This document shows positions 53,177 to 64,000 of a stretch of DNA of 64,000 nucleotides, one piece after another. The stretch comes from Pseudomonas maumuensis (lineage in GTDB: Bacteria > Pseudomonadota > Gammaproteobacteria > Pseudomonadales > Pseudomonadaceae). The notes beneath the pieces are model-generated. The model saw nothing but the letters and a program-made list of their open reading frames with translations, did not search any database and had not been told where the DNA came from. The DNA lies in assembly GCF_019139675.1 (NCBI RefSeq), contig NZ_CP077077.1, forward strand, positions 1,612,001 to 1,676,000. Direction: 5' to 3'. Within the stretch, counting starts at the first letter, position 1. Each line of letters starts with the position of its first letter. The translations under genes and the position numbers were made by a program.

Positions 53177-53253
53177 GGACTCATAGCTCAGCTGGATAGA
53201 GTACTCGGCTACGAACCGAGCGGTCGGAGGTTCGAATCCTCCTGAGTCCGCCA
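53177..53253 (+). tRNA. tRNA-Arg(ACG), copy 1
   Basis: 77-nt tRNA, acceptor GGACTCA/TGAGTCC, anticodon ACG (read as ICG), CCA encoded. T stem is GGAGG/CCTCC. Confidence 0.97.
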
Positions 53254-53323
53254 CTTTTGAAGTGGCTTTGCCTGCAAGGCTGCTTCAATCAACCAGTGGT
53301 AACCTGGTCTAAAACTACCCCAC

Positions 53324-53400
53324 GGACTCATAGCTCAGCTGGATAGAGTACTCGGCTACGAACCGAGCGGTCGCAGGTTCGAATCCTGCTGAGTCCGCCA
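53324..53400 (+). tRNA. tRNA-Arg(ACG), copy 2
   Basis: Same as copy 1 except for the T stem, GCAGG/CCTGC (compensated base pair). CCA encoded. Confidence 0.97.
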
Positions 53401-55940: not shown

Positions 55941-56285
55941 ATAAATTGACCGGTTGTTCTGGTTCAGGGGAGCGGTTCTCAAATTGGCCGCACGGTGGAA
56001 GTACGACCGCGGCGACGACAAAATGTTCAACCGTGATGTGATTTTGGTTCTTCATCTTGCCTCATGGTCGCCGTTTCCTTGGCGTCAATTCTGTGACAAA
56101 TAGTGATCCCGATAAAGGCTTTTTGCCAGTACCAATTATCAGAAATGAGCACTGGTTTGAAAAGTTTCACATTCATCGAATTGCACGTGCGTCAGACAAA
56201 TGCCGTCAAAATCTGGTAAAAGACGACAAAAGCCTAGGGAAAATCATTGAATAGGCTGATTTCCCATACATTGAGCATAGTGGCT
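55941..56285. other. amrZ promoter region and phnN upstream region
   Basis: About 345 bp with no convincing gene. A 65-codon frame (56057-56254) has no ribosome site. AmrZ usually represses its own promoter in this position, but no clear operator could be assigned by eye. Confidence 0.45.
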
Positions 56286-56908
56286 ATGCAATATGACGCA
56301 AGCGGTGGGGTGCCCTCAAGTGGGCGCCTGATATTCCTAATGGGACCTTCTGGTTCGGGAAAAGATTCCCTTATCGACGCGGCCCGGGAACGATTGTCTG
56401 CCCACGGCGTTGAAGTCGCCCGCCGGGTGATCACCCGCTCAGCCGAGGCGAAGGGGGAAGCTGCGCATGGAGTGAGCATCGAGCGCTTCGAGGCGATGCG
56501 CACGCGGGGGCATTTGCCTTGGACTGGCAAGCGAACGGCCTTCACTATGGTATCCCCGCACAACTGAATGCCTGGCTTGCTATGGGGCACTCGGTACTGG
56601 TCAATGGCTCGCGTGCGTATCTGTCTGTTGCCCGGCAACGCTATCCCGACCTCGTGGCCGTAGGGCTGGTCGTTTCAACGCAGGTACTGCGCCAACGCTT
56701 GCTGGCCCGGGGGCGGGAAAGCACCCAGGAAATCGAGCAGCGTCTTGCCCGCAACTCCAGGTTGCAGGCCTACGATGTTGGGGTGCATGTCGTGGACAAC
56801 TCCGGGTCGCTGACCAGCGCGGTCGAGGCGTTGTTCGCCCTGTTACGCAGCGAAGGTATGATCGCCGACGTGCAGGGGAAAAGGCCGACGTGCAAAATGC
56901 CCGATTGA
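56286..56908 (+). pseudogene. phnN: phnN, ribose 1,5-bisphosphate phosphokinase, frameshifted
   Basis: PhnN makes PRPP from ribose 1,5-bisphosphate. Frame one (56286-56510) begins MQYDASGGVPSSGRLIFLMGPSGSGKDSLIDAA (P-loop). Frame two, from the run of five G at 56506-56510, continues GAFALDWQANGLHYGIPAQLNAW...LVNGSRAYLSVARQRYPDL...GRESTQEIEQRLARNSR, the rest of the family. One extra G (six) would join the halves, so one G appears lost. It may be an inactive gene, a phase-variable tract or a sequence error. No other phn genes are near. Confidence 0.88.
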
Positions 56909-56981: not shown

Positions 56982-57058
56982 GTCTCAGTAGCTCAATTGG
57001 ATAGAGCATCCCCCTCCTAAGGGGAAGGTTGGCAGTTCGAACCTGCCCTGGGACGCCA
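56982..57058 (+). tRNA. tRNA-Arg(CCT)
   Basis: 77-nt tRNA, acceptor GTCTCAG/CTGGGAC, anticodon CCT in loop CTCCTAA, T loop TTCGAAC, CCA encoded. Its 3' end borders the AT-rich accessory region, a typical integrase site. Confidence 0.96.
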
Positions 57059-57286: not shown

Positions 57287-57448
57287 TGTACGAAAAGTGC
57301 CTACGCGACGATCATGCTGTGTTGAAAAGAGGCTGGTGCGCCAGCTCGGTCGGAATGCTCATAGACAGCCAGCCAAGTCGCGCGAAACGCAAGTTGTTCC
57401 TCGCCTGTTTTCGCCTGCCATGATCGCGGTTCGCTGATTTTTCGTACA
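57287..57448. repeat. MITE-like segment with terminal inverted repeats
   Basis: TGTACGAAAA at 57287-57296 and its exact complement TTTTCGTACA at 57439-57448 bound 162 bp without coding. No target-site duplication could be seen. It contains direct-repeat copy A. The mobile nature is a guess. Confidence 0.4.
57305..57362. repeat. Direct repeat copy A at left edge of operon
   Basis: 58 bp, about 84% identical to copy B at 61915-61972, same orientation; shared cores include gcgacgatcatgc and ggctggtgcgccag. The two copies enclose the five-gene operon. Confidence 0.8.
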
Positions 57449-57597: not shown

Positions 57598-58557
57598 ATG
57601 CTGCCACTTAATGATTTATGTTGGTTGCCGGATCGTATCTCATTAGTGCCATTGAGCATGCTTGAGCGATCGCATGATTTAAAATCAGGTGCTTGCAGGG
57701 TACTGCAACGCTATTATTTTTTGCAGTCGGTCGGGGTGTCTTCGCGAACGCATGCAGATATGTTATCGGAGATACTTGGCGAATTGATTGCCGCCAATCC
57801 CAAAGTGAAGCAGGTCAAAGGGTGTCTGGTTTATGCCAAGACGCAAACCCATAACACATTCTTTGATGATCATTGGCTGGAGAATCTTGCCAAGGCGTGT
57901 GGGATTGGTCATTGGGACGTGCTGAGTGTCAGTTTGAATCATTGTGCATCAGCCTTGTCAGCCATTCACTTGCTCAAGCATAGATCGATAAGGAGAGGTG
58001 AGCCGCTGTTGCTGCTTACAGGGGAAAAGGCCTTCCATAGTGCTATCAATCGACTGGACAATGCCGTGCTGGCCGAAGTGCCTGCTGCGATGCTACTCAA
58101 CGCTGGGCCAGCCCAGTGGAATCTGAAGCATACGGCCGTTAGGCACCTGCCCTCCTTTTACGATAATCACCGGAATCTACCGGCGGCGCGCCGGCGTGAG
58201 TTATATGCATCGCTGGAGCAGGAGTACCTTGATTTCTACTTCTATGCGTTAGATAAATTCAATGTCCTGCCTGAAAGTATTGATGCGATTGTTCCAGGTA
58301 ATCAGGATCTGCCAATGCTGAAGAAAGTAGTAGACAAATTGGGTTTTCAGGGCACTTTGTTTACCGATCATATTTCCAACTATGGGCACGCTTATTGTTC
58401 GGATGCTTTATTCAACTTGTCTGCCTTGTTGAAGGATTTTGCTGGGCAACGGATTGTCTGTCTTACCATGGGCATGGGTGTTACGTTCTCATGTGTTTTA
58501 ATTGAAAAAAACCAAAGCAGCGAGGTTGTACATGTCACGTCTTCTCTTGGCGGTTAA
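57598..58557 (+). CDS. FabH-like 3-oxoacyl-ACP synthase III-fold protein with altered active site
   Basis: A 319-residue thiolase-fold protein resembling KAS III. By alignment to E. coli FabH, the nucleophilic Cys is Cys116 (SLNHCASAL) and the Asn is Asn261 (ISNYGHAYCSD). The segment that normally holds the catalytic His (VPHQAN) reads VPGNQD (232-237), so the His is absent; the glycine-rich end GMGVTF fits the family. Such changes occur in KAS III relatives that transfer acyl groups instead of decarboxylating. GGAAG precedes ATG 57598. First gene of the operon; it overlaps the ACP gene by 26 bp. Confidence 0.82.
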   Translation: MLPLNDLCWLPDRISLVPLSMLERSHDLKSGACRVLQRYYFLQSVGVSSRTHADMLSEILGELIAANPKVKQVKGCLVYAKTQTHNTFFDDHWLENLAKACGIGHWDVLSVSLNHCASALSAIHLLKHRSIRRGEPLLLLTGEKAFHSAINRLDNAVLAEVPAAMLLNAGPAQWNLKHTAVRHLPSFYDNHRNLPAARRRELYASLEQEYLDFYFYALDKFNVLPESIDAIVPGNQDLPMLKKVVDKLGFQGTLFTDHISNYGHAYCSDALFNLSALLKDFAGQRIVCLTMGMGVTFSCVLIEKNQSSEVVHVTSSLGG

Positions 58558-58792
58558 TGAAGCACTCAATGATGTCATGTCGTCGCCCGTAACGATCGAT
58601 CTGGATACGGATTTTAACGAAGACTTGGATTTGGATTCGGTATTGTTCGTGCAGTTCCTGCTGACACTGGAGGAAAAAATTCCAGGCTTGATGTTTGAAC
58701 CTGATCAGATCAATCAAGATGCTTTTACCACGGTCGCTAAATTGACCTGTTGGATTCAGCAGCATCTGCAGTTGGAGGACAACTATGCCTGA
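58532..58792 (+). CDS. Acyl carrier protein
   Basis: An 86-residue stand-alone acyl/peptidyl carrier protein. The phosphopantetheine site is Ser in DLDLDSVLFVQFLLTLEEKIPGL (variant of DSL), flanked by the usual helices; it is strongly acidic. ATG 58532 follows GAGG and lies inside the end of the ketosynthase gene. It overlaps the next gene by eight bases. It should hold the growing or transferred acyl chain for this operon. Confidence 0.9.
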   Translation: MSRLLLAVNEALNDVMSSPVTIDLDTDFNEDLDLDSVLFVQFLLTLEEKIPGLMFEPDQINQDAFTTVAKLTCWIQQHLQLEDNYA

Positions 58793-59414
58793 AGGTCTGT
58801 TTAACAGGGTCTATCAGCTATTTGCCAGCAATGAACCTGTGGACGCCATGCGGCAGTTGCGTCTCGAACTGTCCCAACAGGCCAAAGATGCCTTCTGCCA
58901 GGGCTATCAACTCGTGCCGAACGAACAGGCGTCACCGCAGGCGGACAGGGTGCTTGCTTCCATTGGCTTCGAGCTGCGGTTGCAGCCAGGGGAAGAGATG
59001 ATAGCCGGTGATGACACCCAGCTCGTGGCCTCTGTCGCCGCCCGTTTAGGGTTGCTGATGCGCATGCTGGGCACTAGCTGGACGCACTTATCCGCGCGCA
59101 GGAGCTTCGGTGTGAAAACCACCCGGCATCAGCTGATAAAAGCCGAGTTTGCGGATCTGAGCAGTCAGTGCAGCCTGCTGGTGTCGCAATGGAGGTTACG
59201 TAGCGTTGCACGGGACTTTCAGGACGTCGAGGAAGACCATTGGCAGATTACCCTGCTGACCAACAGGGCAGAAAAGCTGATGGGAGGCCATGGCTATCTG
59301 CTGGGTGCGACGCACACATTGTCGTACCTCTCGATGATGCTCTACAGCCTCTATGGCAAAGCGACAGGGCAATATCCCGCATCACGGCGGGACGGCCAGG
59401 GAGTGCTTGCGTGA
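58785..59414 (+). CDS. Protein resembling the C-terminal helical domain of acyl-CoA dehydrogenases
   Basis: A 209-residue, mostly helical protein. The end ITLLTNRAEKLMGGHGYLLGATHTLSYLSMMLYSLYG resembles the C-terminal domain of acyl-CoA dehydrogenases (the GGHGY region that binds FAD). The N-terminal and beta domains are missing, so it is half the usual size, and the catalytic Glu is not obvious. It may need a partner or have lost flavin chemistry. Start overlaps the ACP gene, and its stop overlaps the next start (GTGA). Confidence 0.6.
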   Translation: MPEGLFNRVYQLFASNEPVDAMRQLRLELSQQAKDAFCQGYQLVPNEQASPQADRVLASIGFELRLQPGEEMIAGDDTQLVASVAARLGLLMRMLGTSWTHLSARRSFGVKTTRHQLIKAEFADLSSQCSLLVSQWRLRSVARDFQDVEEDHWQITLLTNRAEKLMGGHGYLLGATHTLSYLSMMLYSLYGKATGQYPASRRDGQGVLA

Positions 59415-60763
59415 ACACATCACCGGGCGTGGTTCTGTCGCAACGTCAGGGGGCAGGCCGGGATATCGCAGATCTGTTGAAGCTTGCCTGGCCGATGATC
59501 GTTGTTGCGGTCGCGGTGTCATTTTCACAAAACATCCAGACCGCGATCTTGGGGCATGGCGTTGAGACGACATCGATCTACTGGCTATCAATGTTGCAAC
59601 CGTTCAGCTTTTTGTTTCTGGCAATTCTTGAGTGCCTGGCGATCAGCAATCAGGTATTCAGTGCCAGGTCTGTAAACCTGTGGTCAAGGCACAAGGTCCT
59701 GAAGGCGACCTTGATCTTGTCTGCTCTGGGAATACTGCTAGTCGCCTTGCTGAGCGGGACGATCGCGCTGACGTCCACCTGGCTGGAGAGGCTGCTGCCC
59801 GTTTCTGGAGGGGGCTTCTATCAAGAGGCGCTTCCCCTCTATTTCCTGTCGACATTGCCGTTCATTCAACTGGAAATGTGCAACAGTGCCTTGCGAGGGC
59901 AGGGCAAGAGTGCGTTGAGCATGTTGCTGGTCATTGTCTATATCGCCCTGAATGCCAGTATTTGTTACACCAGCTATCACGTCTACGATCTGGGTTTCTA
60001 TTCCATAATCTTGGCCAATGCCTTGGCCTCTGGGTTGTTGATCCCGGTCGCGACATGGCTGGTATGGCGTGTCGGTCATCAACAGCAGGATGATCGGCCG
60101 CAAGCCTTTACTGCGCGGTTGAAAGGCCTTATCCAACAGGTTGGCTTGCCGATCTTTGCGTCTTTCATAGTAGTGTTCATTAGTTCACTGCTGGTGTTTC
60201 CACTGATTGGAACGCTGGGCGAACAATATGTCGCCGCGTTCCTGATCATCACCAAGATCAGGATGTTCATCGTCATTCCAGCCGTGGCTTGCGGTTCTGC
60301 CTTGGCGATCTTGATTAACCAGCGTTTGGCGATCAGTAGCGGTGAGCATCTCAAGCGCCTACTGCACCGAGGGCTGATGTTCATTGGAGGGCTCTATTTG
60401 CTGTTGACGCTAGGAGTCTACTGGGGTGAGGCAACACTGATCGGCATTCTTTCAGGTGATGGGGCGATCAGGGACGCCAGTCGTCAGATGATGCTGATCT
60501 TACTGCCAACGTTTTTCCTCACCGCGTGCGTGGCTTCTCTGCAAGCGCTACTTGAGCAGCTTGATCAGGCGCGTCGTGTCCTGATATTGACGGTGATCAT
60601 AGAGTTACTCATGGTGATCGTGTTGCTGGCGGGGTGGGAGCGTTTCTCTGACTTAAACTCAATGATGAGCGTAATAATACTGTTCAGTGCAATTAATTTC
60701 CTGGCCTTTGCCAACGAATACTGGCGGCTGGCGAACAAAATAGGCAGTGAGCATGTTATTTAG
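59411..60763 (+). CDS. MATE-family efflux transporter
   Basis: A 450-residue integral membrane protein with 12 helices in two bundles, typical of MATE exporters (DLLKLAWPMIVVAVAVSFSQNIQTAILGHG at the start; ALRGQGKSALSMLLVIVYIALNASICY in the first half). GTG 59411 has GGGAG seven bases ahead and overlaps the previous stop by four bases. As part of the operon, it probably exports its product by Na+ or H+ exchange. Substrate unknown. Confidence 0.88.
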   Translation: MNTSPGVVLSQRQGAGRDIADLLKLAWPMIVVAVAVSFSQNIQTAILGHGVETTSIYWLSMLQPFSFLFLAILECLAISNQVFSARSVNLWSRHKVLKATLILSALGILLVALLSGTIALTSTWLERLLPVSGGGFYQEALPLYFLSTLPFIQLEMCNSALRGQGKSALSMLLVIVYIALNASICYTSYHVYDLGFYSIILANALASGLLIPVATWLVWRVGHQQQDDRPQAFTARLKGLIQQVGLPIFASFIVVFISSLLVFPLIGTLGEQYVAAFLIITKIRMFIVIPAVACGSALAILINQRLAISSGEHLKRLLHRGLMFIGGLYLLLTLGVYWGEATLIGILSGDGAIRDASRQMMLILLPTFFLTACVASLQALLEQLDQARRVLILTVIIELLMVIVLLAGWERFSDLNSMMSVIILFSAINFLAFANEYWRLANKIGSEHVI

Positions 60764-61808
60764 TGCTGTCTATCCCCTGTTGCTGGTGGTGGCACTGATC
60801 CATCAGAATTATCTGCGTGTCCTGGTGATCATGCAGCTCAGGCCTACATTGCTGATGAAAGCCAAAGTCAGGCCGACAACTCACTATGTCCGCACGTGCC
60901 GAATAATAAGGATGTTTGATCTGTATGTGCTCGACATTATGTCTTCCTATCTTTCCGCGCTGTATGCATTGCATCTTTTCGAAAAGACCAGGCCACTGCC
61001 CTATAAGCCAGCAGAGCTAAAGCTGCTCGGCCAGTGTCGACAGGAAAACTTCGCCTGGCGGCATAAGTTCTTGAAGATGTTCATTTACCCTCAACCTGTG
61101 CAGGCTGCAGAGAAGGTTTTGCTGGTTCATGGTTGGGACGGGCGAAGCATCATGCTCAGGCACCTTGCCCAACGCTTGCAGGCGAAGGGGTACGTTGTCT
61201 TTGCACCTGACCTGCCGGCGCACGGAGTTTCTCCAGGCAAGGGCGTCTCATTTTACGATCTTTCCAGGGCTGTCATTGATATGGAAAGACAATATGGCCC
61301 TTTTTCAGTAGTGATCGGGCACTCGTCCGGTGGGTTGGTAAGCTGCATGGCCGCTTTACAAGGGCTGTGCTTCAAGCGAATGATCTTGATCAGCAGCCCT
61401 TGCTGTTTCGGAGAGGTGCTGGATAATTATGTGTTCAATCAGAAGTTACCCAGGCATATTGCAGCACCCATGAAAACGCTTTATCGGCTACGCTACGGCG
61501 TGCATCCAGACAAGATTGGCCCCGAGTTGATTAAAAAAATAAAGCAGCCGGTCCTGATTTTACATGACAAGGGCGACGTAAGTATTGATATGGAAGAGGC
61601 CATGGTGCTTAACCATGCTCTGGACAATAGCGAACTGATTGTGACCGAAGGTAAGGGGCACAATGGCGCACTGCGCGATGCCTCCGTGTTTAGTCGTATT
61701 GCTGCTTTTTTGGACCCCGTTGAGCAGGAAAATTATTCCACTATCGTTGATCCCGCATTACGCTTGCGTGCCACCCTGGTTAAACCTGTTAAACACCCGG
61801 TGCGCTAG
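60753..61808 (+). CDS. Membrane-anchored alpha/beta hydrolase
   Basis: A 351-residue alpha/beta hydrolase. A hydrophobic N-terminal helix (about 3-25) may anchor it in the membrane; the hydrolase domain (about 110-330) has HGWDGRS (oxyanion), nucleophile elbow GHSSGG, an acidic residue in LHDKGDVSI and the His in EGKGHNGAL. It could release or load acyl chains (thioesterase/acyltransferase). The start overlaps the MATE gene by 11 bp. A stem-loop after it ends the operon. Confidence 0.87.
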   Translation: MLFSAVYPLLLVVALIHQNYLRVLVIMQLRPTLLMKAKVRPTTHYVRTCRIIRMFDLYVLDIMSSYLSALYALHLFEKTRPLPYKPAELKLLGQCRQENFAWRHKFLKMFIYPQPVQAAEKVLLVHGWDGRSIMLRHLAQRLQAKGYVVFAPDLPAHGVSPGKGVSFYDLSRAVIDMERQYGPFSVVIGHSSGGLVSCMAALQGLCFKRMILISSPCCFGEVLDNYVFNQKLPRHIAAPMKTLYRLRYGVHPDKIGPELIKKIKQPVLILHDKGDVSIDMEEAMVLNHALDNSELIVTEGKGHNGALRDASVFSRIAAFLDPVEQENYSTIVDPALRLRATLVKPVKHPVR

Positions 61809-61914: not shown

Positions 61915-61972
61915 GCGACGATCATGCCGCTTTGAAAGCAGGCTGGTGCGCCAGTGCGGTCGAAGTGCTCAT
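61915..61972. repeat. Direct repeat copy B at right edge of operon
   Basis: 58-bp partner of copy A (57305-57362), about 84% identical and in the same orientation. Confidence 0.8.
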
Positions 61973-62127: not shown

Positions 62128-62673
62128 TTAAAGCGAGTTGATATTGTTGAGCAGCATGTTTCGCGAGAAGTCGCTTCTTTGTATGCCAAAGATAAAGTCA
62201 TATTCGGAGGATTCTTTCTTTATGACGGGTTTAGTCGACTTTGTTACGCTTTGTTTAAATTTCAGCGGTGTTTTGTTGTAGGCTCTGCTAAAACTTCTGG
62301 AGAAGTGGGGTAGGGAGGAAAATCCGCAGGCATAGCTGATGTCGGTCAGTGACCAGTCCGGGGCAAGGTGGATGAACTCCTTTGCCAGGGCCAGGCGTAC
62401 TCGCCACATCCACTTGATCGGGGTGACACCGTAAAATAAGTTGAACATTCGGCAAATATCAAATCTGGACTTGCCACAGATTTTTTCCAGGTCTTCCAGC
62501 GCAATATCCTCTGAAATGTTATCTATGATGTGGTTTATCACTGTGACAATGCACAGTGCTTTCTCTGTATGTGCATGCTTGCCATAGATCTCAAAGTGAC
62601 GTTTGTACAGGTCGTCCATTATTTTTTGTGTGAATAGGGTCTTTTCAGCATTCGAGATTTTGTGATCCCACAT
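62128..62673 (-). CDS. AraC-family transcriptional regulator (short form)
   Basis: A 181-residue regulator consisting mainly of the AraC DNA-binding domain (about 45-145): helix one IALEDLEKICGKSRFDICRMFNLFYGVTPIKWMWRVRLALAKEF and helix two LTDISYACGFSSLPHFSRSFSRAYNKTPLKFK. There is no long sensor domain. The C-terminal 35 residues are Lys/Ser-rich and unlike others. It is divergent from the HlyD gene and probably controls it, and perhaps the acyl-ACP operon. AT-rich. Confidence 0.88.
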   Translation of the reverse strand: MWDHKISNAEKTLFTQKIMDDLYKRHFEIYGKHAHTEKALCIVTVINHIIDNISEDIALEDLEKICGKSRFDICRMFNLFYGVTPIKWMWRVRLALAKEFIHLAPDWSLTDISYACGFSSLPHFSRSFSRAYNKTPLKFKQSVTKSTKPVIKKESSEYDFIFGIQRSDFSRNMLLNNINSL

Positions 62674-63095
62674 ACAGACTCCGTTCTGCAGCGCTCAGTG
62701 GCGAAATTTCTTATTTTTTATGTAAGCTTTTGGCTCGCATTCGAGTAAGCAATTGCTGTGCCACGTTATTTTTAGCTGCAACACGTTGTTTATTAAGTAG
62801 TTTTTTCAATGATCTCAAGGTTGGGAAAGCGCAGTCCCATTTTCGAACGATTTTTTCCCAGTCTGCTGACATGCGTCCCATTATTGGGACGCGGTGAGTC
62901 TTGGCCATGAGCAGCGAATACAAATAAACGTAGGGAGCGGCTCGGTGGCGAAATTGAGACCGTTGCTGGTTAGTCGAGCGCTGGCCAAACTCGGTGGGCA
63001 TTGCCAGACCTGTGATATCAGCACTTAAGTTTATTATCTTGAATTTGGCATGAACCGTGCATTCACTTGCCGATATTATCAACGTTGGTGTGCTT
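62674..63095. other. Divergent region between AraC and HlyD genes
   Basis: About 420 bp. Contains a perfect palindrome GCGTCCCATTATTGGGACGC (62873-62892) and further TGGGA/TCCCA copies around it. A minus-strand frame (62711-63151) overlaps the HlyD start and has no ribosome site, so it is not called. Confidence 0.6.
62873..62892. promoter_or_regulatory. Perfect 20-bp palindrome, candidate operator
   Basis: GCGTCCCA-TTAT-TGGGACGC, midway between the AraC regulator and HlyD genes. TGGGA at 62822 and TCCCA at about 62835 and 62857 repeat its half-site. Confidence 0.5.
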
Positions 63096-64000
63096 ATGGA
63101 TATTTCGATCCCGCAGTCGGGAACTAGGCGACTGCTCAAGAAACACAGCAAGGTCCTTGCCGTTGGCGTCTGCTCACTGGTACTGCTGCTGGCGATTTAC
63201 AACTATCGCTTCTCGCCTTATCAAGTGGCTCTTGGTAGCGTGGCGGTCGCCGAGGTCAAGTATGGTGATTTCTCCGTTGAGGTGCGCGGGAATGGCGTGC
63301 TGCTCCCTCGGGATATCAATTGGGTGGCTGCCAATGTTGATGCCCGGGTCGAAGAAATCATCTACAAGGCCGGCATGAAAGTCAGTAAGGGGCAGTTGTT
63401 GGTTGTCATGAGCAATCCTACGCTGGAGCAGCGGCTTCAGGAAAATCAACTCGAACTCAATGCCCTCAGGGCAGAAACCGAGGCCAAAAATGCTGAGCTT
63501 CAAAATAAGATCCTGACTCAAGAAGCAGTCATACTCGAAGCCAAAACCCGGTTGCTTGGATCGTCACTGCGACTTGCAGCCCAGAAACAATACAGTGAAG
63601 CCGTGCCACGGCTGGAATACGAAACTACGCGCATTCTGACTGAGCAATATACTCAGCAGGTCAGTTTTGAAGAGCGTAGGTTAGGGTCGCTCAAACTCAG
63701 TGTCGAGGCGGATAAAAAGGCCAACTTCATGCGTCTTGATAAAATGGAGTCGCTGGTTGCACTGGGGCAGCAGGAGGTAGATTCACTCAAGGTCAAATCA
63801 CCGATAGATGGTGTTTTACAGGATGTGAGCGTTCAGGTCGGACAGCGGGTAACGGTGGGCAGTGATATTGCTCGTCTTGCCAAAGAGACAGAGCTGTACG
63901 CCGAACTCAAAGTACCCGAACTACAGTCACGCGATCTTGCGGTCGGGCAGGCCGTCACGATCAACACTGGTCGCAGCCGGTTCACGGGAGTTCTTTCGAG
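63096..64000 (+). CDS. HlyD-family periplasmic adaptor (efflux), 3' end cut by window
   Basis: An open frame of 301 codons to the window edge. A short cytosolic tail and one membrane helix (about residues 22-37, VLAVGVCSLVLLLAIYNY) come first. Then the HlyD/MacA pattern: first lipoyl half VDARVEEIIYKAGMKVSKGQLLVVMSNPTLEQRL, a long coiled coil (about 107-235) and the second half IDGVLQDVSVQVGQRVTVGSDIARL. It bridges an inner membrane pump and an outer membrane channel; those genes should lie downstream. Weak GGTG ribosome site; GTG 63090 is also in frame. Confidence 0.9.
   Translation, partial: MDISIPQSGTRRLLKKHSKVLAVGVCSLVLLLAIYNYRFSPYQVALGSVAVAEVKYGDFSVEVRGNGVLLPRDINWVAANVDARVEEIIYKAGMKVSKGQLLVVMSNPTLEQRLQENQLELNALRAETEAKNAELQNKILTQEAVILEAKTRLLGSSLRLAAQKQYSEAVPRLEYETTRILTEQYTQQVSFEERRLGSLKLSVEADKKANFMRLDKMESLVALGQQEVDSLKVKSPIDGVLQDVSVQVGQRVTVGSDIARLAKETELYAELKVPELQSRDLAVGQAVTINTGRSRFTGVLS

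Follow-up and report, generated by a model that had tools for sequence, protein, structure and literature searches.

The Vfm quorum-sensing system of the plant pathogen Dickeya, whose locus was described in 2013 and whose signal still awaited isolation in 2022 (PMC9306890), is reported to consist of 26 genes, including the operons vfmAZBCD and vfmFGHIJ and an operon extending from vfmK to vfmW (PMC7912708). In the published account of its components, VfmM, VfmO, and VfmP are adenylating enzymes, VfmC is a multidrug transporter, VfmG a permease, VfmH and VfmI constitute a two-component system, and VfmW is an oxoacyl-acyl carrier protein (ACP) synthase (PMC9306890); VfmE is described as an AraC-type regulator (PMC8860905, PMC9045272). 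The gene vfmA heads a set of five, vfmA, vfmZ, vfmB, vfmC, and vfmD, reported as one unit in D. dadantii; there, a polar insertion in vfmA lowered protease production, pectate lyase behaving similarly and cellulase not (PMC4686594). Elsewhere, indC-vfmAZBCDFG is described as a single transcription unit (PMC9239193). The subject of the present work is a run of five genes in Pseudomonas maumuensis, found near the end of a 64,000-nucleotide stretch (the window; positions 1612001–1676000 of the 5.76 Mb genome). These genes very probably represent the vfmAZBCD operon of a Vfm-type quorum-sensing locus that is complete and was acquired horizontally. What is new about the Pseudomonas locus is the host of an otherwise known system and its extended form, for which a new signal analogue is predicted.

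The five genes are arranged as follows (window coordinates; identities refer to the counterparts in D. oryzae ZYY5):

57598..58557, plus strand: vfmA homologue, protein with β-ketoacyl-ACP synthase (KAS) III fold, 319 amino acids, 43% identity
58532..58792, plus strand: vfmZ homologue, acyl/peptidyl carrier protein (PP-binding), 86 amino acids, ATG start, 55% identity
58785..59414, plus strand: vfmB homologue, acyl-CoA dehydrogenase (ACAD)-like protein without the middle β domain, 209 amino acids
59411..60763, plus strand: vfmC homologue, MATE family transporter, GTG start, 46% identity
60753..61808, plus strand: vfmD homologue, α/β hydrolase, ATG start, 43% identity

With starts taken from the DNA, the open reading frames (ORFs) overlap by 26, 8, 4, and 11 bp, and the identical four overlaps are present in the annotated copy on the plasmid of Rahnella HX2. 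In the order of the genes, the Pfam matches are ACP_syn_III_C (4.5e-9), PP-binding (4.4e-6), Acyl-CoA_dh_1 (2.2e-4), MatE (1.4e-14), and Abhydrolase_6 (5.7e-16); the N-terminus of the VfmD homologue appears hydrophobic by eye. Among 29 loci found via the first gene, order and strand of the five genes are kept in 22, without intervening cluster genes, which argues that the operon is more than a chance assembly. The seven exceptions comprise one locus with two cluster genes inserted behind the first gene (L048), one without a hydrolase match (L054), one whose contig ends within the fourth gene (L051), and four that hold the first gene alone or the first gene and a distant MATE gene (L040, L045, L042, and L049; L040 and L045 are contigs shorter than 4.5 kb). 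The G+C (GC) content of the operon is 0.513 versus 0.644 for window bases 1–52000. An original prediction, made from the bases of the window, had named the four overlaps, one compact operon, these gene families including a half acyl-CoA dehydrogenase, and an AT-rich composition; all of this has stood up. A 58-bp direct repeat (84% identical) lies on either side of the five genes (57305–57362 and 61915–61972); the genome contains four matches to it, and near an outer-membrane factor gene located beside the cluster there is a weak, partial one.

The link to Vfm came from a protein search with the first gene, which gave 79 proteins; Pseudomonas, Rahnella, Dickeya, Musicola, and roseobacters were among the names listed, and thus the Vfm locus was suggested as a candidate. 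The 29 loci obtained by scanning named genomes with the same gene include those of D. undicola 2B12 and D. oryzae ZYY5, both of which are listed as typed Vfm strains (PMC9306890). Several Dickeya relatives of the third gene bear the name "VfmB protein", a name that is also already attached to a Lonsdalea protein. In either Dickeya strain the five genes are followed by an AraC-type gene on the minus strand and by genes for an ABC ATPase, a MacB permease, an NtrC-type regulator, and a histidine kinase; the layout in P. maumuensis is alike but contains an additional hlyD gene.

Since the window ends inside the locus, the identity of the five genes was hidden within it. When genome positions 1668000–1718000 were read with Pfam scans, relatives of the first gene were found within 30 kb downstream, and a cluster became apparent that spans positions 1669598 to about 1701250 (approximately 32 kb) and has the five-gene operon at its start; the outer-membrane factor gene beside it ends at 1703132. 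Two further members of the cluster still begin within the window:

62128..62673, minus strand: vfmE homologue, AraC-type regulator, 181 amino acids, convergent with the operon, 47% identity to ZYY5
63096..64000, plus strand: gene for an HlyD-type membrane fusion protein (MFP) adaptor, cut by the window end and running to genome position 1676346, not present in the two Dickeya clusters

Behind hlyD, the plus strand encodes the ABC ATPase (vfmF), the MacB permease (vfmG), the NtrC-type regulator (vfmH), and the histidine kinase (vfmI). A phosphopantetheinyl transferase (PPTase) homologue (vfmJ) and a small protein (vfmX homologue), both found via Rahnella queries, are located between the kinase and the monooxygenase with which a long minus-strand block begins. 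In its first part, this block encodes a luciferase-like monooxygenase, a P450, a KAS III, a 284-amino acid protein, an ACAD, a further KAS III, and a hydrolase; there follow a 170-amino acid protein, an ACAD, a glyoxalase-like protein, two adenylating enzymes, an ACP, and a third adenylating enzyme, and, at the end, a KAS III-like protein, a 301-amino acid protein, an Orn/DAP-type pyridoxal phosphate (PLP)-dependent decarboxylase, and a protein of 101 amino acids. The block is less AT-rich than the operon, with a GC content of 0.55–0.63 for its longer genes. The 284- and 301-amino acid proteins, VfmV and VfmL, match each other in a profile comparison (100%); a role as inactive PqsB-like KAS partners was considered and is not supported, the comparison with the profiles of KAS1 to KAS4 giving a probability of at most 5.2%.

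Each of the 26 vfm genes counted in D. oryzae ZYY5 is matched by a counterpart in P. maumuensis, and order and orientation are the same. The count starts at the first gene, ends at the last small protein, and excludes two plus-strand ORFs (112 and 113 amino acids) that remained unmatched; the counterparts of vfmJ and vfmX were matched via the proteins of Rahnella HX2, and the letters J, K, L, N, Q–V, X, and Y were assigned from the gene order. Identity to ZYY5 amounts to 78% for the ABC ATPase, 64% for the NtrC-type regulator, 55% for MacB, 50% for the histidine kinase, 54% for the adenylating enzyme VfmM, and 53% for the decarboxylase VfmK, and ranges from 43 to 55% within the vfmAZBCD operon. 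Three features of gene content and order that characterize the Dickeya locus are found: the order oxoacyl-ACP synthase, ACP, VfmB, MATE transporter, and hydrolase; vfmE on the opposite strand beside vfmD, followed by vfmFG and vfmHI, with hlyD inserted between vfmE and vfmF; and a minus-strand block with the three stand-alone adenylating enzymes VfmM, VfmO, and VfmP. In comparison with Dickeya, five extra genes are present inside the cluster, encoding HlyD, the luciferase-like oxygenase (LuxMO), the P450, a hydrolase (ABH2), and a KAS (KAS4).

Substrate preferences of the adenylating enzymes were compared by means of the published VfmO and VfmP codes (PMC9306890). A column search within broad spacing limits, in which both Dickeya strains were to give VfmO2, ZYY5 VfmP2, and 2B12 VfmP3, was satisfied by exactly one set of nine columns (the tenth position, an invariant Lys, lies outside the set). 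The search served as an internal control, since true VfmO and VfmP enzymes ought to show these codes at fixed alignment positions. In the four Pseudomonas copies, the VfmM code is DYYPTTMRC, identical to that of both Dickeya strains and of Rahnella HX2 and one letter off in Vibrio, Prodigiosinella, Xenorhabdus, and Lonsdalea. The VfmO code of the four copies, DVFVICTVA, differs from the published VfmO1–O3, and their VfmP code, DMLFFAGGM, differs from VfmP1–P4. The locus consequently falls into none of the specificity groups defined by these codes, the code of group VI, which was named in Musicola, being outside the comparison; this bears on the signal variant and not on the membership of the locus in the Vfm family. 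Since the VfmP code is unlike the four published ones, the Pseudomonas locus is predicted to combine the shared VfmM unit with a different signal analogue.

Within the genus, the first gene is present in only four of 298 genomes, P. maumuensis included, and among 369 genomes of the class searched at E 1e-15 a match was obtained in this genome only. The three other Pseudomonas genomes hold the cluster genes through the last small protein in the same order, with identities of 67–94% (the outer-membrane factor excluded; VfmJ and VfmX compared with Rahnella only); the outer-membrane factor had no match in the fetched stretches of these three genomes. The first gene product is 67% identical to that of Rahnella HX2 and 43% to that of ZYY5, and one Rahnella copy (P0018) shares no more than 44% identity with a Dickeya-type protein (P0031, itself 94% identical to that of D. 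undicola), though both genera belong to the Enterobacterales. In the tree, the Pseudomonas rows form one group with Rahnella nearest, support being 100/99 for the joint group and 89/91 for Pseudomonas alone; of the further join with Dickeya, the tree program warns that it may be a long-branch effect. In PLSDB, the first gene occurs on 17 plasmid records, 11 of which are Rahnella plasmids of 514–723 kb. Horizontal transfer of the locus, as assumed in the original prediction, is supported by its rarity in the genus, its proximity to the Rahnella megaplasmid copies, and its low GC content, and appears likely on these grounds of sequence comparison.

A tRNA-Arg(CCT) gene at 56982–57058 was considered as integration site and is not supported, as its last 14 bases and longer ends occur once only in 50 kb. 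No tRNA gene was found in 14 loci, comprising 12 fetched stretches of other Pseudomonas clusters and two loci from P. maumuensis itself (L007 and L008), and no empty site was found in relatives, in which the flanks were on different contigs or only one or neither of them was present. In the same part of the window, ARAGORN calls a tRNA-Val (53242–53330, minus strand) that overlaps tandem tRNA-Arg(ACG) genes on either side and is probably a false call. At 56247–56908, a gene, which we take to resemble a PhnN-type kinase, is split over two overlapping plus-strand ORFs (56247–56567 and 56519–56908), by either a frameshift or a sequencing error.

The distribution outside Pseudomonas and Rahnella bears on the history of the system. 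All five extra genes are absent from the two Dickeya clusters and present in Rahnella HX2, and P450 and KAS4 occur also in Vibrio sp. MEBiC08052, Prodigiosinella, and Xenorhabdus. Because of the latter occurrences, the Dickeya version, which is the smallest of seven gammaproteobacterial clusters seen end to end, looks reduced rather than ancestral. A different kind of reduction is found in Rahnella victoriana, where two records (NZ_CP089920.1, L073, and L035/L071) contain vfmA to vfmI with hlyD, as well as the small gene at the end of the cluster and a decarboxylase gene in shortened form; matches to the three adenylating enzymes, P450, KAS III, ACAD, and the other genes of the block are lacking. 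Strain DSM 27397 retains part of the luciferase gene in addition to vfmJ and vfmX, strain JZ-GX1 part of vfmJ only; the left ends of the loss hence differ between the two strains. R. victoriana has one KAS-type place, whereas the other 10 Rahnella plasmid records have three each. As judged from this gene content, it is possible that the R. victoriana strains are listeners without a signal of their own. Lonsdalea britannica, which is reported from the same oak lesions as R. victoriana (PMC10673434), carries a Vfm-type locus (L046).

Two of the operon proteins depart from their enzyme families. By profile, VfmA shares the C-terminal domain with FabH/PqsD-type KAS III enzymes (PDB 2ebd and 3h76) and with the KAS III-fold protein ChlB3 (7eqi). 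According to the alignment with 2ebd, which places the His and Asn columns of the Cys-His-Asn triad, VfmA of P. maumuensis retains Cys116 and, unlike FabH-type enzymes, has Gly in place of the triad His and His264 in place of the triad Asn. Among 25 VfmA rows, drawn from the 79 proteins of the first-gene search, Cys is present in 25, His in 8, and Asn in none; the His column is occupied by Gly, Cys, Ser, Gln, or Tyr in 17 rows, and the Asn column by His in all 25. VfmA therefore lacks the triad of a FabH-type condensing enzyme. A VfmA-type protein of Dickeya poaceiphila (proteins P0024, P0113, and P0120) is 56% identical to that of P. maumuensis; the species also seems to have two VfmB-type proteins, one named VfmB and the other nearer to the type of P. 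maumuensis and Rahnella, and perhaps two Vfm-type loci.

VfmB shows the ACAD fold, with low TM-scores (at most 0.51 to full-length ACAD enzymes among the matches listed), because the fold is only partly there; its Acyl-CoA_dh_1 match of 21.9 bits is slightly below the Pfam cut-off of 22.4, and its profile had no match among PDB sequences at E 0.01. The model predicts two short strands only, and neither the middle β domain nor the catalytic Glu is found. In a by-eye comparison with full-length enzymes, the alignment of VfmB ends with YSLYGK; full-length ACAD enzymes carry YEGT at this place. With 209 amino acids and no β domain in its model, VfmB also differs from the ACADs that occur as pairs, ChsE4-ChsE5 (4x28) and Fic32-33 (8hk0).

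With regard to regulation, two candidate promoter elements are located between vfmE and hlyD:

62748..62763, minus strand: sigma-54-type −24/−12 site TGGCACAGCAATTGCT before vfmE, conserved position
63046..63061, plus strand: sigma-54-type site TGGCATGAACCGTGCA before hlyD, conserved position

In the clusters scanned (P. maumuensis, the other Pseudomonas genomes G083, G218, and G267, Rahnella HX2, ZYY5, and 2B12), a site of this type with two to three mismatches lies upstream of vfmE on the same strand in seven of seven, and upstream of hlyD in all five that have this gene; the corresponding stretch of the two Dickeya clusters, from vfmE to the ABC gene, showed no such site. The sites before vfmE would fit an NtrC-type VfmH, since VfmH is reported to bind the vfmE promoter (PMC7912708). 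Given the possible extra site before hlyD, VfmH might exert feedback on the sensor/transport operon in Pseudomonas and Rahnella, which would differ from what is reported for Dickeya.

Gene content, gene order, homology, adenylation codes, and the conserved sigma-54-like sites come directly from the sequence comparison; signal, two-component sensing, and VfmE cascade are carried over from the Dickeya papers, and every enzymatic role, like a working circuit in Pseudomonas, is inferred. The carrier proteins would be armed by VfmJ. VfmM, VfmO, and VfmP would adenylate the building blocks, which for VfmO and VfmP are probably amino acids, and VfmN, VfmZ, and perhaps VfmY would serve as the carriers on which the activated units are loaded, with VfmZ carrying one unit. 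Construction and oxidation of the signal would involve the decarboxylase VfmK, two ACAD-like proteins (VfmR and VfmU), and two proteins of the KAS III fold (VfmT and VfmW), joined in Pseudomonas by KAS4, the P450, and the luciferase-like oxygenase. VfmA, via its Cys, would be an acyl- or aminoacyltransferase rather than a standard condensing enzyme, and VfmB a noncatalytic partner of the full-length dehydrogenases. VfmD would be a membrane-bound hydrolase that releases or trims the product, and VfmC would be an accessory exporter alongside a pump of VfmF, VfmG, and HlyD. The signal would be sensed by VfmI, possibly together with VfmG; phosphorylated VfmH would then drive the sigma-54 promoter before vfmE, and VfmE would eventually switch on the vfm operons and further targets.

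Several observations weigh against this interpretation as a functional quorum-sensing locus. The site scan is permissive, with 34 matches in 50 kb of P. maumuensis at no more than three mismatches, and the two stricter matches in the window are not beyond chance (0.66 expected; 12 of 100 shuffles gave two or more), so that it is solely the conserved position that argues for the sites. VfmH is reported to bind the vfmA promoter as well (PMC7912708), and upstream of vfmA no sigma-54-like site was seen in the P. maumuensis cluster and one weak match in G218. The VfmA model was built from just four close rows and has a pLDDT of 48.4, and the proposed mechanism of VfmA is therefore taken from the alignment; the 101-amino acid VfmY has no Pfam match, and its label as a carrier protein was given by eye. 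For the Pseudomonas locus, expression, signal, or phenotype data were not found. In the four alphaproteobacterial loci of the matrix, vfmAZBCD is retained, in one case with additional genes in between, and no AraC, NtrC, or kinase homologue was seen in their fetched stretches; vfmAZBCD thus also occurs without a visible quorum-sensing circuit. Three of the loci compared (L038, L043, and L053, from Epibacterium, Tritonibacter, and Phaeobacter) show, within approximately 21 kb fetched, vfmAZBCD together with relatives of VfmT, VfmK, VfmU, VfmV, and VfmW, and possibly represent the same chemistry without the circuit.

These alphaproteobacterial loci, with biosynthetic genes and no regulator seen in the stretches fetched, would suit a locus for a secreted bioactive compound, antibiotic or siderophore-like, in which the two-component system and the AraC protein are only its regulators and quorum sensing is a Dickeya-specific use. 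The P450, the luciferase-like oxygenase, KAS4, HlyD, and the nearby outer-membrane factor do look like tailoring and export functions. This explanation is nevertheless considered unlikely: MacB, the NtrC-type regulator, the kinase, and the AraC regulator are conserved in the same arrangement as in ZYY5 at the identities given above, a sigma-54-like site precedes vfmE, and the two R. victoriana strains, which keep sensing and have lost most of the synthesis genes, are better explained as listeners than as producers. That a transferred Vfm locus has decayed or fallen silent would account for the rarity, the AT-richness, and the repeats flanking the operon; this is quite improbable, given that the cluster genes are open, that the copies in G083 match over 93–100% of their length, and that the Pseudomonas copies are as similar to each other as stated.

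Least credible is what the original prediction had proposed, i.e., a stand-alone five-gene pathway in which the ACP takes up an acyl chain supplied by primary metabolism and the chain, once modified, is released and exported. The overlaps are real and the gene order is kept in most loci; the operon sits, however, with the whole cluster in P. maumuensis and three other Pseudomonas genomes, the remaining locus matches vfm gene for gene, and the pathway, which retains hardly any probability, is rejected and largely refuted by this genomic context. The set had been thought to be without an adenylating enzyme, and three of them are encoded just past the window in the same locus, besides a second ACP, the PLP decarboxylase, the PPTase homologue, and the two-component system; the AraC regulator gene adjoins the operon already within the window. 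Loading of the ACP by the ketosynthase has become uncertain because the triad His is absent, and it is doubtful whether the MATE protein is needed as exporter, since the biosensors are reported to be still activated by a D. dianthicola strain in which 1 kb of vfmC is deleted (PMC9306890). The set had also not been recognised as a described Pseudomonas pathway, and membership in a well-described cluster had been named as a result that would refute the prediction; the genes do correspond to vfmAZBCD (PMC4686594, PMC7912708); that they are undescribed in Pseudomonas holds within the literature searched.

Returning to the reading as a Vfm-type quorum-sensing locus, reviews of 2021, 2022, and 2024 have Vfm confined to Dickeya, and a report of Vfm outside this genus was not found in the open literature except for Musicola, which was separated from Dickeya and in which group VI was named (PMC10319131); an earlier mention of relatives is possible. 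This picture is changed by the complete loci in Pseudomonas and Rahnella and by the related ones in Vibrio, Xenorhabdus, Lonsdalea, Prodigiosinella, and alphaproteobacteria. The relatives show which genes go together, they make analogues predictable from adenylation codes, and producers other than Dickeya offer new routes to isolating the Vfm signal. A further question that arises is whether plant-associated Pseudomonas or Rahnella engage in cross-talk with the soft-rot bacteria or interfere with them. It is an evenly balanced proposition that Vfm, rather than having been invented by Dickeya, is an old, mobile signalling language of the Proteobacteria with many dialects, of which Pseudomonas and Rahnella would use an extended analogue and Dickeya the smallest version, while R. 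victoriana would listen, for example, to L. britannica. If this is true, the extra oxidation and export genes of Pseudomonas and Rahnella would yield a new signal analogue with the invariant VfmM unit at its core.

Summarizing the comparison with known systems, the locus of P. maumuensis has 26 counterparts, in the same operon layout, to the Vfm locus of Dickeya (vfmA–Z; D. dadantii 3937, D. oryzae, and D. undicola). It differs from that locus in the five extra genes, in the nearby outer-membrane factor, and in the sigma-54-like site before hlyD. The closest arrangement is the cluster on Rahnella megaplasmids (for example, plasmid PRA1 of R. aquatilis HX2, CP003404.1), which has the same gene set and order, including hlyD, LuxMO, P450, ABH2, KAS4, the PPTase gene, and vfmX, with identities of 49–88% by gene. 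In contrast to the locus of P. maumuensis, it is plasmid-borne, has no match to the outer-membrane factor, and carries the VfmP code DMLFYGACV.

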